DNA of 49,992 nucleotides from Candidatus Iainarchaeum sp. (GTDB taxonomy: Archaea; Iainarchaeota; Iainarchaeia; Iainarchaeales; JAAZKV01): assembly GCA_012799645.1 (NCBI GenBank), contig JAAZKV010000023.1, positions 1-49,992 on the forward strand, written 5' to 3'. Below the pieces are notes generated by a model that was not told the DNA's origin, searched no databases, and saw nothing but the letters and a program-made list of their open reading frames with translations. The translations under genes and the position numbers were made by a program. Below, one piece after another: positions 17,254-41,094 of the stretch. Each line of letters starts with the position of its first letter. The stretch's first letter is position 1.

Positions 17254-18372
17254 ATGAAAAACAACAAAAAATTGAAAAAAAACAAGAAAACAATTCTTAC
17301 AATTGCAAACGAAAAAAAGTGTGACAAGTGTGAAAAAAAATACGAAATCATTCTTGCTTATGGGCCGCACAAATTTTGTGAAAAACACTTTGTTGAATTT
17401 TTTGAGAACAGGATACGAAAAACTATTAGAAAATACAATCTAATCGCTCCGCAAGAAAAAATACTAATCGCGTTAAGCGGAGGAAAAGACTCAACAACAA
17501 TATTGCACATATTGGCAAAGTATTATAAAAAAGGAAGAGAAATTGAAGCAATAATTATTGATGAAGGGGTTAAAGGATATAGAGAAAAAGCTGTAAAAAA
17601 AGCAATAGAGAATTGTAAAAAACTAGGGATCAAACACCACTTAGTTAAATTTGAAAAAGAATTTGGAATAACTAATGATACATTAATGCCAATACTAAAA
17701 AATAATCCAAAACTTGGGGGAACTTGTTCATTTTGTGGAGTGCTACGAAGAAATATAATGAACAAATACGCGAAAAAACTAAAATGTCAAAAACTAGTAA
17801 CAGGACACAATTTGGATGATGAAACTCAAAGTTTTGTAATGAACATATTCAATAATGATTATGAAAGAATGAAAAGAATGGGGGCAAGTGCAGGAATAAT
17901 AAAACACACAGGGTTTGTTAAAAGAATAAAACCACTCTACGAAACCCCTGAAAAAGAAATCATTGCATACTGTGCATACAAAAACATTAAACACTACAGC
18001 GAAGAGTGTTGCCCATATTCATACACGGCAAAAAGAAACGAGTATAGAGAAATGTTGAATAATTTTGAGGATAGATTTCCAGGAACACAATACTCAATAC
18101 TGAGATTTTATGAAAACCTAAAAAATGATATAAAAAAAATTAATGAAAAAGAGAACAAAAAAAAGAACAAAAATGAAAAACAAAAAAATGAAAGCGTATT
18201 AAAAGAATGCGAAAAATGTAAAGAACCAACAGAAAGAAAATTATGCAAAGCTTGTGAAATGATAGAAAAAATAAAACTTGAAAAAAAATTTCCAAACACA
18301 AACACTAGTAAAAAGTTTTTTGAGAAAAATAAAAACAAAAAACTAACCTGTGCAATTACAAAAAGATACTAA
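17254..18372 (+). CDS. ncsA: tRNA 2-thiolation PP-loop protein (TtuA/NcsA/Ctu1 family)
   Basis: CDKCEKKYEI zinc site, LSGGKDSTTILHIL PP-loop, GGTCSFCGVLRRNIMN, VTGHNLDDETQSFVMN, C-terminal CEKCKEPTERKLCKACE. Confidence 0.92.
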   Translation: MKNNKKLKKNKKTILTIANEKKCDKCEKKYEIILAYGPHKFCEKHFVEFFENRIRKTIRKYNLIAPQEKILIALSGGKDSTTILHILAKYYKKGREIEAIIIDEGVKGYREKAVKKAIENCKKLGIKHHLVKFEKEFGITNDTLMPILKNNPKLGGTCSFCGVLRRNIMNKYAKKLKCQKLVTGHNLDDETQSFVMNIFNNDYERMKRMGASAGIIKHTGFVKRIKPLYETPEKEIIAYCAYKNIKHYSEECCPYSYTAKRNEYREMLNNFEDRFPGTQYSILRFYENLKNDIKKINEKENKKKNKNEKQKNESVLKECEKCKEPTERKLCKACEMIEKIKLEKKFPNTNTSKKFFEKNKNKKLTCAITKRY

Positions 18373-23594: not shown

Positions 23595-23987
23595 ATGGCT
23601 GATGAGAAAAAATTTGACCAAGCGGGATCATTAAAACCAGGCCACTTAGTGCTAATTGATGGAGAAGTGTGCCAAGTAAAAAGTGTTGAAAAATCAAAAC
23701 CGGGAAAACACGGAGCAGCAAAAGCAAGAGTAACAGCATTCAATATTTTTACTGGACAAAAAAGAGGATTACTAAAAGGAACTGATGCGGAAGTAGAAAT
23801 ACCAATAGTCCCAAAAGAAATAGCACAAATAGTTGCAATAATGGGTGACACCATCCAAATAATGGATACCACTTCATACGAAACACTAGATGCTCCAAAA
23901 AACGAAGAAGTAACCGGACTAAAATCAGGAGATCTTGTAGAATACCAAAAATACGGGACAAGCGTAAAAATTGTTAGAAGAAGATAA
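23595..23987 (+). CDS. eif5a: Translation initiation factor aIF5A
   Basis: KSVEKSKPGKHGAAKARVTAFNIFTGQKR hypusination loop. Confidence 0.97.
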   Translation: MADEKKFDQAGSLKPGHLVLIDGEVCQVKSVEKSKPGKHGAAKARVTAFNIFTGQKRGLLKGTDAEVEIPIVPKEIAQIVAIMGDTIQIMDTTSYETLDAPKNEEVTGLKSGDLVEYQKYGTSVKIVRRR

Positions 23988-24239
23988 TTAAGGCCAAGCA
24001 CAAACTAATAAAAACCAACAATTCCAACACAAAAACACTCAAAAAAAACTAATACTCGAAAAAAATTCAACCCAACGCCAAAAAAACCAATACTCAACAA
24101 AACTAACAATTCAAAACAACTAACATCACAAAAAACCATCAACAAAAAAAACTAATAACTTAAACAAAACTAATTTATAAAAATTATCAAAACAAAAAAA
24201 TAAGAAAATATTAAAAAGAATAAAAAACAAACAACTAAT

Positions 24240-24944
24240 ATGCCAACTAATATGTCAAAACTAAAAAACTTTCCAAAAAATCTTTCCAAAAAAATAATTA
24301 TTGGACTTACTGGGAGAAATGATAGTGAAGTTATTGAAAAAATAAAAAACGCTGACAAATTAAAAATAAAAGAAGCGGGATTATTTTTAGAAATGCTCAA
24401 ACCAAACCAAAGACAAAATGTTTATGAAGAATTAGAAAAATCAAAAATAAAAAAAATCCCACTAATACACGTAAGAGATGATATGGTAAAAAAAGAATTT
24501 GATTACTTGGAAAAAAAATACTCTCCAAAATATTATACAATACATGAAAGTACTTTCAACCACTTGCACAAATGGAAAAATTATCAACAAAAATTATTTT
24601 TAGAAATGAATTATGATAACCACATAGAAAAAAATGTGAAAGTTGAAAAAATTGGCGGGTTTTGCATTGATTTATCTCATCTAAAAGCAGCACAAGAACG
24701 AAACGCTAAAGAATATGAATACACAATAAAACAAATAAAAAAAACAAAAAATCTTTGCAACCACCTAAATGGATATGATGAAATTGAGAAAAGAGATATA
24801 CACACCATAAAAAGTGAAAAAGAATTTAATTACTTAAAAGAACTACCAAAAATTGTTTTTGGCGAAAAAATCGCTCTTGAAATGTTCAACCCAATAGAAG
24901 AACAAATCAAATACAAAAAATACTTAATTAAACTACTCACCTAA
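24240..24944 (+). CDS. Putative TIM-barrel (xylose isomerase-like) protein
   Basis: GGFCIDLSHLKAA, CNHLNGYDEIEKRDIHTIKS; no close family recognised. Confidence 0.55.
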   Translation: MPTNMSKLKNFPKNLSKKIIIGLTGRNDSEVIEKIKNADKLKIKEAGLFLEMLKPNQRQNVYEELEKSKIKKIPLIHVRDDMVKKEFDYLEKKYSPKYYTIHESTFNHLHKWKNYQQKLFLEMNYDNHIEKNVKVEKIGGFCIDLSHLKAAQERNAKEYEYTIKQIKKTKNLCNHLNGYDEIEKRDIHTIKSEKEFNYLKELPKIVFGEKIALEMFNPIEEQIKYKKYLIKLLT

Positions 24945-24982
24945 ACGAAACAATAAATAAACCTACTAAACACAACCATAAT

Positions 24983-25657
24983 ATGAAAAATACTGCAAAA
25001 ACAAAAACAAACAAAAAAACAAATCCAAACAAAACAAAAAAACAAAAAGCACTATTGTTACTCTCAGGAGGATTTGATAGTCCAGTAGCAGGAAAACTGT
25101 TAGAAAACAAATTTCAATTAAGCGCAATACATTTTTCTCAAACACCATTCACTGATAATAGTGCAGAAGAAAAAGCGAAAAAAATATGCAAACTATTGGG
25201 AATACCAAAACTAATAATTATTGATGCTGGAGAAACACTACACGAAATCGCTAAAAGCACCTACCCCGAATTTTATTTTGTACTAATGAAAAGATACTTT
25301 ATGCAAGTGAGTGAAATAATTGCGGAAAAAGAAAAATGCGAATACCTAATCACAGGAGAAAGCATAGGACAAGTTAGTTCCCAAACAGCAAGCAACTTAA
25401 TGAACATAAATTTATCCACAAAAATAGAAATACTACGCCCACTATTTTTTTATACCAAACAAGAAATAATTGACAAAAGCAAAGAATTTGGATTCCACGA
25501 AATTTCAAAAGGGCCAGAAACTTGTGATGCACTAGCACACGGAAAAGTAAAAACCAAAAGCAAAATTAGTGACATAATGCGCGAAGAAAAAAAATGCAAA
25601 ATGGAACAAAAAATAAAACAATCATTGAAAAAAATAAGAACAGAAAAAATAAATTAA
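24983..25657 (+). CDS. thiI: Stand-alone ThiI PP-loop catalytic domain (4-thiouridine synthetase), lacking THUMP
   Basis: LLLLSGGFDSPVAGKLL, YLITGESIGQVSSQTASNL, ILRPLFFYTKQEII, GPETCDALAHGKVKTKSK; no N-terminal THUMP. Confidence 0.9.
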   Translation: MKNTAKTKTNKKTNPNKTKKQKALLLLSGGFDSPVAGKLLENKFQLSAIHFSQTPFTDNSAEEKAKKICKLLGIPKLIIIDAGETLHEIAKSTYPEFYFVLMKRYFMQVSEIIAEKEKCEYLITGESIGQVSSQTASNLMNINLSTKIEILRPLFFYTKQEIIDKSKEFGFHEISKGPETCDALAHGKVKTKSKISDIMREEKKCKMEQKIKQSLKKIRTEKIN

Positions 25658-38944: not shown

Positions 38945-40162
38945 TTAATTTTTTTCTGACAACAAAACTCTCGCAGCTGTTTCTGTATCCCCACTCGCAA
39001 GCAACTCAAACATCCTATTAGTATCAAAATTTTTTAGATTAGCTTCCTCAACATTTTTTTCCAAAATTATTAAACCAAGATCAATCACGCCTTTTTTTTG
39101 GTTCTGTAATTCTTTCAATTCAATCATTTTTTTCTTAAAATCCTCTACAACCAATTCTTTTGAAACAGAAAAAATTGCTTTATCTTCTGGTAAAACAAAA
39201 AAAACATCTTTTTGAGAAAACCCCTTAGCAAGCGAACCCACGATTTTTAATCTAATCAAAGGTTTTATTTCAAATTCATTCACTAAAAAAGAATTTATTT
39301 TCTCTTCAACAACTTTTTTTATTTCCTCCGGAGTAGCGTTAGTAAAATTTATTTTCTCGTAAAACAATTTTCTTTGAATTTTGTAAGGAACAAACCACAA
39401 TTTTTTTGAAACAGTGTCAAAAAAGAAAACTCCTTTTTCTTTTTTTGATTCAAGATTTTTCATTTGAGTAAAAACACTAGAACCTGTTAAGAGAAATCTT
39501 TTATCTTCAATTATTTGTTCATCCGACCAATGCAAATGCCCATTAATAATTAAATCAAAACCACTTGGTAAATCACTAAGAGAAAGAGAAGCCACCATTT
39601 CATCATCAAACGGCAAAAACTCTTTGAAAGATTGGTGAAACAAAATAATGTTTGTTGCACCCGAAATTGGTTTAGGATCATAAAAATTCAACAAGTCCCG
39701 AGCGTGTTTTTCTGGAACACCACCCATTCCATGAACCACTACTTTTTCTTTAACTCCATTAACTTCTTTTTCAAAAACAATACTTCCTAAATGCAAATGA
39801 ACTAAAGCTCCACTCTCTTCAAGCACATCAAGAGCGTTAGCAAAATCCTTTCCCCTATGCTCGTGAGTTCCGTGAATCGCAATAAAAGGAATTCCTCTTA
39901 CAAAAACACTCTTAGACCCCGCCCTAGTGTTTTTTGTTAACTCTTGAACACCACCACTATTTTTTGTAAAACAATCAAAAGTACTCAACCAAACCTCTTG
40001 AGAAGGAACAGCATTATCAAACAAATCCCCCGCGTGAAGAATAAAATCAACACCCCTTTCTTTGAACAATTCAATCGCTTCTTTAAAACGAGAAAAAGTT
40101 TCGCAAGCACGCTCACCAGAACCAAACCCTAAATGAGTATCAGAAAAAATACCTACAAGCAT
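38945..40162 (-). CDS. mre11: Mre11/SbcD-like DNA repair nuclease
   Basis: GIFSDTHLGFG, LHAGDLFDNAVPS, AIHGTHEHRG, INGHLHWSDEQ metallophosphoesterase motifs. Confidence 0.92.
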   Translation of the reverse strand: MLVGIFSDTHLGFGSGERACETFSRFKEAIELFKERGVDFILHAGDLFDNAVPSQEVWLSTFDCFTKNSGGVQELTKNTRAGSKSVFVRGIPFIAIHGTHEHRGKDFANALDVLEESGALVHLHLGSIVFEKEVNGVKEKVVVHGMGGVPEKHARDLLNFYDPKPISGATNIILFHQSFKEFLPFDDEMVASLSLSDLPSGFDLIINGHLHWSDEQIIEDKRFLLTGSSVFTQMKNLESKKEKGVFFFDTVSKKLWFVPYKIQRKLFYEKINFTNATPEEIKKVVEEKINSFLVNEFEIKPLIRLKIVGSLAKGFSQKDVFFVLPEDKAIFSVSKELVVEDFKKKMIELKELQNQKKGVIDLGLIILEKNVEEANLKNFDTNRMFELLASGDTETAARVLLSEKN

Positions 40163-40245: not shown

Positions 40246-41094
40246 TTAATCAAATGGTGTTTTTGGAGCATCTACAAAAAGTGGAGCAAGTGGTTTTAAT
40301 CCAATTTTTTTTGAACACACAATCAATTCTTTTTCGTTAGTTGCATCAGAAAAAACTCCTAATACTTTTCCACTATTAAACAACTCTAATATTTTTTTTT
40401 CTTCAACTTTTTTTATTACTTTGAAAGAATTGTATTTTTCAAGCGAACTTAAATCTTTTTCACCACAATAAAGAATATTAATTCCTGATTTTAGTAACAA
40501 AAACCCTAACTTTTCTGCAAACTCTTCGGCCACTAGAACACTTGTTCCTTGAGTGGAAACAGGTAACCCACCAATCCCTTTTATTTCTTTAAAATAAAAA
40601 TAAGAATAATCTTTAATTGCTAAACAAAAAAATTCACTACTTGGATCTTTTAATTTAACTTTGAGTTTTGGAAAATTTTTTAACACCTCTGAACCAAGAA
40701 CAATTTCTAAATCCTTAGAAGAAAAATTCTTACAAAAACTTTTACCCCTAACAGCAAAAGTTGGACCCAAATTATTTTCGCACAAATCAAGAACATTACT
40801 ACAAATTTCGTTAAGATCAATTGTTTTTCTTTTCTCCGCAACAAAAAAAGAACTAATCCCGAAACAATTTTTCAACCCATTAACCACACTGCTTGGATTT
40901 TTACACTCAATAATTATTCTTCCACAAAAAGAAGATATTGATTCAAAACTAACTCCCTGTTTTTTTAAACTCAAAACCATATTTTCTTTTAAAATAGAAA
41001 ACCACCTTGATTTTACTTTATTGGTTTTGAGAGAAATTTCAGGATTTAATAAAATTATTACACAATTTGGAGAAAACATAAAAATAATAAACAA
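40246..41094 (-). CDS. ThiI N-terminal/THUMP protein with degenerate, catalytic-motif-less PP-loop remnant
   Basis: PEISLKTNKVKSRWFSIL, FFCLAIKDYSYFYFKEIKGIGGLPVSTQG resemble ThiI; the SGGFDSPVA position reads SVLVAEEFAEKLG. Confidence 0.8.
   Translation of the reverse strand: MFIIFMFSPNCVIILLNPEISLKTNKVKSRWFSILKENMVLSLKKQGVSFESISSFCGRIIIECKNPSSVVNGLKNCFGISSFFVAEKRKTIDLNEICSNVLDLCENNLGPTFAVRGKSFCKNFSSKDLEIVLGSEVLKNFPKLKVKLKDPSSEFFCLAIKDYSYFYFKEIKGIGGLPVSTQGTSVLVAEEFAEKLGFLLLKSGINILYCGEKDLSSLEKYNSFKVIKKVEEKKILELFNSGKVLGVFSDATNEKELIVCSKKIGLKPLAPLFVDAPKTPFD

Follow-up and report, generated by a model that had tools for sequence, protein, structure and literature searches.

In a 49,992-nucleotide stretch of DNA from the archaeon Candidatus Iainarchaeum sp. 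(contig JAAZKV010000023.1; this whole stretch is referred to below as the window), we analyzed a gene encoding a THUMP-domain protein related to the tRNA thiolation enzyme ThiI. The product is best explained as a catalytically dead subunit that binds tRNA for a two-subunit tRNA 4-thiouridine (s4U8) synthetase, a reading to which we assign a probability of roughly 0.8, with a stand-alone PP-loop protein, also encoded in the window, as the putative catalytic subunit. For this pair, homology, the loss of catalytic residues in one half and their retention in the other, co-occurrence, repeated linkage, and at least two independent origins were established directly, and we infer complex formation, stoichiometry and enzymatic activity.

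The THUMP gene is a single open reading frame on the minus strand, coding for 277 amino acids plus a stop from an ATG at 41079; its longest frame, of 282 amino acids, begins at a TTG at 41094, which marks the outer limit. The ATG is the likelier start, because relatives start at a homologous 'MFxPNCV'. A tRNA-Cys gene next to it has T at position 8. Within the protein, a ThiI ferredoxin-like domain (NFLD) is followed by a THUMP domain and by a shortened C-terminal domain that is homologous to the PP-loop domain of ThiI, and the motifs run in the order PEISLKTNKVKSRW, GIGGLPVSTQG, and then TSVLVAEEFAEKLGFLLLKSG at the place of the ThiI motif SGGxDSPVA. The features of the gene are as follows:

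40246 to 41079, minus strand: THUMP / pseudo-PP-loop protein (Foldseek to PH1313, TM-score (TM) 0.80; profile matches; outer TTG at 41094).
40846 to 41043, minus strand: ThiI ferredoxin-like domain, PF22025 (Pfam E 2.9e-6; 27 of 27 relatives).
41026 to 41028, minus strand: codon of Lys18 (in EISLK), the equivalent of Thermotoga maritima ThiI Lys17 (K in 27 of 27 split proteins).
40609 to 40818, minus strand: THUMP domain, residues 88-157 (Pfam PF02926, E 7e-6; 27 of 27 relatives).
40249 to 40545, minus strand: shortened, motif-less PP-loop-type (HUP fold) domain, residues 179-277 (hhalign E 1e-7; AlphaFold2; PF02568 in 10 of 27).
40510 to 40530, minus strand: eroded PP-loop, AEEFAEK at the place of ThiI SGGxDS, residues 184-190 (SGGxDS in 0 of 27).

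A first-pass annotation had proposed that this gene is the THUMP half of a split ThiI, and the profile searches agree: both Pfam matches (ThiI_fer, 3e-6; THUMP, 7e-6) lie above their gathering scores, and the protein is matched in part by TIGR00342 (7e-21, NCBIfam) and by PH1313 (3.5e-17). The motifs quoted in that annotation, which gave no strand, are present as written on the minus strand. It allotted roughly 80 residues to the shortened, motif-less domain; we counted approximately 98 after GGLPVSTQG, of which approximately 78 come after LLLKSG. The TIGR00342 score of 74.7 bits is below the cut-off of 264.5, and the protein does not combine NFLD, THUMP and an active PP-loop in one chain.

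The C-terminal domain is a PP-loop remnant, eroded and shortened as the annotation had suggested. Pfam did not detect a PP-loop domain in the window's own protein, and it still detected PF02568, the ThiI PP-loop domain, in 10 of the 27 aligned family members. An hhalign comparison of the THUMP family's C-terminal domain with the family of stand-alone PP-loop proteins gave an E-value of 1e-7, against 0.46 for the NFLD-THUMP half, which served as a control, and a less eroded relative (L012) reads GNVAVFFSGKKTDLLAAFLLMKRGCNVFPV at the stretch aligned with Bacillus anthracis ThiI. The AlphaFold2 model is confident (pLDDT 94.3, pTM 0.87), and in whole-chain Foldseek comparisons it matched PH1313 (1VBK) with a TM of 0.80 and ThiI with a TM of 0.71; the C-terminal part is not an unrelated fold, the outcome on which the proposal of a remnant could have failed. 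When the 27 proteins were placed on T. maritima ThiI (TmThiI) numbering, neither SGGxDS nor GQVxSQT was found in any of them, the Arg264/Met267 stretch was deleted in all 27, and the segment with the catalytic Cys344 was gone in 26, the window copy included. Phe103, Gly126, Val138 and Gly168 are each kept in 27/27, and the Lys17 equivalent is invariant in the 27 split proteins, in three of three Thermococcales split proteins, and in every fused ThiI of the set. In those pairs of relatives close enough to measure, constraint on the motif-less domain was about equal to that on the rest of the protein (dN/dS of 0.42 vs 0.46 for NFLD-THUMP in one comparison, 0.20 vs 0.14 in another; the sample was six pairs, and in several of these the synonymous sites were saturated).

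The stand-alone PP-loop protein has kept what the THUMP protein has lost. Its features in the window are these:

24983 to 25657, plus strand: stand-alone ThiI PP-loop protein, 224 amino acids (PF02568, 8.5e-41; C-terminal part of TIGR00342, 1.3e-42; 4KR6 fold, TM 0.86).
25064 to 25081, plus strand: intact PP-loop SGGFDS (SGGxDS in 25 of 25 partners).
25355 to 25387, plus strand: dimer-interface (DI) loop GESIGQVSSQT (GQV[AS]SQT in 25 of 25 partners and 0 of 27 THUMP proteins).
25523 to 25525, plus strand: codon of the catalytic Cys181, the ThiI Cys344 equivalent (C in 25 of 25).

The partner model superposes on the ThiI PP-loop domain with a TM of 0.86 at 1.7 Å, and its family mirrors the THUMP family, with SGGxDS, GQVxSQT and the catalytic Cys all present in 25/25. 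This Cys is the only invariant one in the family, and a CXXC motif is absent from 22 of the 25 members, the window partner among them, and present in all nine Thermococcales stand-alone proteins and all eight fused proteins of the set. The window partner, having one conserved catalytic Cys and no CXXC, is therefore not of the iron-sulfur (Fe-S) type represented by archaeal TtuI (CXXC plus C). The genome encodes two cysteine desulfurases, one SufS-type and one NifS/IscS-type, that could serve as its sulfur feed.

The published structure of ThiI with RNA offers a framework for how two such halves may work together. In the crystal, the NFLD and THUMP domains of one subunit hold the tRNA, and U8 lies in the other subunit's active site. 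Dimerization is mainly through the PP-loop domains, an NFLD loop with Lys17, a residue that extends to the active site across the dimer, contacts the DI-loop of the other subunit's PP-loop domain, and contact between the CCA end and THUMP is needed to place U8 (PMC4041423). In the split pair, the Lys17 equivalent is on the THUMP half and the DI-loop on the PP-loop half, so that each has one side of this contact. Since tRNA bound to one ThiI subunit is modified by the other, a single copy of each half is enough, and the split would turn a symmetric homodimer into an asymmetric pair. By homology, NFLD and THUMP of the THUMP protein would grip the acceptor stem and CCA end, and the PP-loop protein would bind ATP, adenylate U8 and pass on sulfur, received from a cysteine desulfurase, via its single conserved Cys. 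If a chain that has THUMP but a dead PP-loop domain pairs with a live PP-loop chain, one complete active site is preserved, and it is therefore reasonable to view the degenerate domain as a scaffold or docking surface for the stand-alone protein, a role that would fit the trans-acting ThiI dimer (PMC4041423).

The two halves also travel together across the phylum. Among 44 genomes of at least 85% completeness, 26 carry the THUMP half, and 25 of these 26 also carry the separate PP-loop protein, in line with the co-occurrence that the first-pass annotation had expected. Occurrence of the gene without the PP-loop protein, which that annotation had named as grounds for refutation, was seen in a single near-complete genome, G040. 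None of the 18 THUMP-less genomes has a stand-alone PP-loop protein; eight of them carry a fused ThiI and neither half (in one, G074, it is broken across contigs), and the other ten have no THUMP half, no stand-alone PP-loop protein and no fused ThiI. Fisher tests of this association, in which kinship is ignored, gave 1.8e-11, and 4e-8 when genomes with fused ThiI were left out. Joint absences are spread over separate groups (families f12, f15 and f20, and one genus of f8). Among less complete genomes, G004 and G041 carry the PP-loop half and are without the THUMP half. One f8 genome (G066) has two stand-alone PP-loop paralogues (C39, C57) and one THUMP half.

Several observations weigh against a two-subunit enzyme. 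One near-complete genome (G040; 88% complete, 160 contigs) has the THUMP half and no partner that we could find, and the same was seen in two less complete genomes, G048 and G051. The halves lie approximately 13-15 kb apart on opposite strands in the window's family (in the window, G002 and G007), and are unlinked in most of the order. The constant neighbor of the THUMP gene is not the PP-loop gene; it is a gene for an Mre11-like calcineurin phosphoesterase directly downstream (38945-40162, minus strand; NCBIfam Mre11_Sulfo, 4e-25, far below cut-off). Finally, the CCA-contact residues Lys104, Tyr119 and Ser123 of TmThiI are not conserved in the split family, with Lys104 replaced by Ala in 24 of the 27 proteins; Tyr119 and Ser123 are variable in fused ThiI as well. 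The THUMP half of G051 (71% complete, family f20) is at L208 2712-3683, and the other f20 genus is without both halves.

These points bear on three other explanations. The PP-loop protein might suffice alone for s4U8 formation or another reaction, the THUMP half being an optional tRNA chaperone that raises efficiency. Its PP-loop, DI-loop and catalytic Cys are all kept, and other Thermococcales have a stand-alone PP-loop protein alongside a fused ThiI; however, no near-complete genome of the phylum keeps it without the THUMP half, and ThiI itself requires the CCA-THUMP contact for placement of U8 (PMC4041423), which makes this explanation unlikely. Slightly less probable still is that the THUMP protein is a free-standing tRNA binder with another job outside a ThiI complex, for example as a Tan1/THUMPD1-like adaptor or as a partner of the Mre11-like protein. 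The THUMP and Mre11-like genes are linked on the same strand in all 23 loci that show both, often with a 4-nt overlap and at times separated by a HAD-type phosphatase gene. Nevertheless, 41 of the 44 genomes contain the Mre11-like protein, with or without the THUMP half (Fisher p 0.56, no association); it therefore appears to be a neighbor and was rejected as the true partner. The PP-loop protein, unlike the Mre11-like protein, tracks the THUMP half, fused ThiI substitutes for both halves together, and the THUMP protein keeps a ThiI-specific degenerate PP-loop domain. A third view, in which an ancestral fused ThiI left this gene behind as a decaying pseudogene, is largely refuted and highly improbable: the window copy is strongly eroded and its PP-loop domain escapes Pfam, but frames are intact over many families of the order, dN/dS is below 1 for both halves in close pairs, the predicted fold is confident, and the Lys17 equivalent is invariant.

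Direct gene linkage, and with it the history of the split pair, can be seen outside the window's family. In G038 and G052 the PP-loop gene comes first and the THUMP gene follows approximately 300 bp on, with the same order in G045; in two Thermococcus metagenome-assembled genomes (MAGs), G053 and G054, the order is reversed, with a 4-nt overlap between the THUMP gene and the PP-loop gene behind it. Both orders thus occur, in separate lineages. Thermococcus genomes were reached via TtuA of Pyrococcus horikoshii; a scan of the genome contigs with the PH1313 sequence gave no match. Phylogenetically, the window-type split THUMP proteins form one clade (support 100/100), as do the window-type split PP-loop proteins (96/89). 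PH1313 and the other Thermococcales split THUMP proteins fall among fused Thermococcales ThiI. The approximately unbiased (AU) test rejected a single clade of window-type and Thermococcales split THUMP proteins (p 0.002), and with it the idea that the window's family and PH1313 go back to the same split; since the Thermococcales proteins are outside the window's clade, the split arose at least twice. The unity of the Thermococcales split THUMP proteins alone is doubtful (AU test, p 0.04). In the G053 and G054 pair, the PP-loop of the THUMP copy reads SGPNSA. The tree places the PP-loop partner of this pair within the PP-loop domains of fused Thermococcales ThiI, in keeping with a history in which part of the gene was duplicated in tandem and the first copy then decayed. 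In other Thermococcus MAGs the fused ThiI is intact and a PP-loop gene lies a short way downstream (17 bp in G059), plausibly an earlier stage of the split. With moderate confidence, we propose that on at least two occasions, and possibly three, the archaeal ThiI homodimer, with its active sites completed in trans, was converted into an obligate heteromer in which a pseudoenzyme subunit binds tRNA and a second subunit is catalytic; that Thermococcales appear to show intermediates, namely an intact fused ThiI accompanied by a tandem PP-loop gene, and a THUMP copy that is less eroded and overlaps a PP-loop gene; and that PH1313 is one such pseudoenzyme subunit. Some Thermococcus MAGs (L105-L109, L120) carry stand-alone PP-loop proteins that have a CXXC motif and in which SSGIDS takes the place of SGGIDS; these are mostly in genomes that also have fused ThiI, in some of them close downstream.

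Among known systems, the closest counterpart of the THUMP protein is PH1313 (P. horikoshii, 1VBK, 'ThiI-like protein'), which has the same architecture throughout (profile match 1.6e-46 over residues 2-303) and likewise has an eroded PP-loop and no C-terminal segment, a truncated-ThiI layout. It differs in grouping with fused Thermococcales ThiI and not with the window's clade, the split not being of common descent. The available part of its description reports several missing ThiI residues and no demonstrated activity, and names no catalytic partner (PMC9957541). ThiI/TtuI (TIGR00342; 4KR6, 2C5S) uses tRNA and active site in trans within a homodimer (PMC4041423), whereas the split system has two genes and its THUMP subunit has a dead, shortened PP-loop domain; from the Fe-S type of methanogens and Thermococcales the split partner differs by its single invariant Cys, mostly without CXXC. 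PRK08349 (NF006222), a stand-alone PP-loop family annotated as hypothetical, resembles the window partner in size and in having a single PP-loop domain (match 5e-30), but the partner is below the family cut-off (104.8 vs 251 bits). A parallel exists in eukaryotes, where Ncs2 is a degenerate paralogue of Ncs6. In s2U34 thiolation, Ncs6/Ncs2 (Ctu1/Ctu2) is likewise a two-protein PP-loop thiolase where archaea have one (PMC10067955), although it belongs to another PP-loop family, acts at another tRNA position and has no THUMP domain. Already known, then, are PH1313 as a short ThiI-like protein (PMC9957541) and the individual pieces as caught by TIGR and PRK models; the pairing of the halves and their repeated origin appear to be new. 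No paper pairing two ThiI halves or noting a repeated origin was found in the open literature, and the paper on Pyrococcus furiosus TtuI and the crystallization note on PH1313 may mention them.

Other genes in the window deserve brief mention. Both in the window's family and in one genome of family f8 (L032-L039, L060), an eIF5A gene is near the PP-loop gene (region 23595-25657, plus strand). Between the two is a 234-amino-acid gene (24240-24944) with no significant Pfam or NCBIfam match, which was not seen beside the partner gene in relatives. At 17254-18372 on the plus strand is a gene for an NcsA/TtuA-type PP-loop tRNA thiolase (NcsA model 1.6e-69, below cut-off), and the organism therefore probably also makes a 2-thiouridine. 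The overall gene content is archaeal, and the small size of the genome points to a probable DPANN lineage.

The pairing offers a role for PH1313, a structure with function unknown since 2005, and for the 'hypothetical' PP-loop proteins of the PRK08349 type, and it matters for annotation, as genomes of this group could otherwise be counted as lacking ThiI. It also allows the trans-acting ThiI dimer to be tested in a system that nature supplies: should the heteromer prove functional, THUMP and catalysis never need to be in one chain. Finally, the recurrent erosion of one site in a homodimer would provide a graded series for the origin of pseudoenzyme subunits, parallel to the two-protein Ncs6/Ncs2 system.
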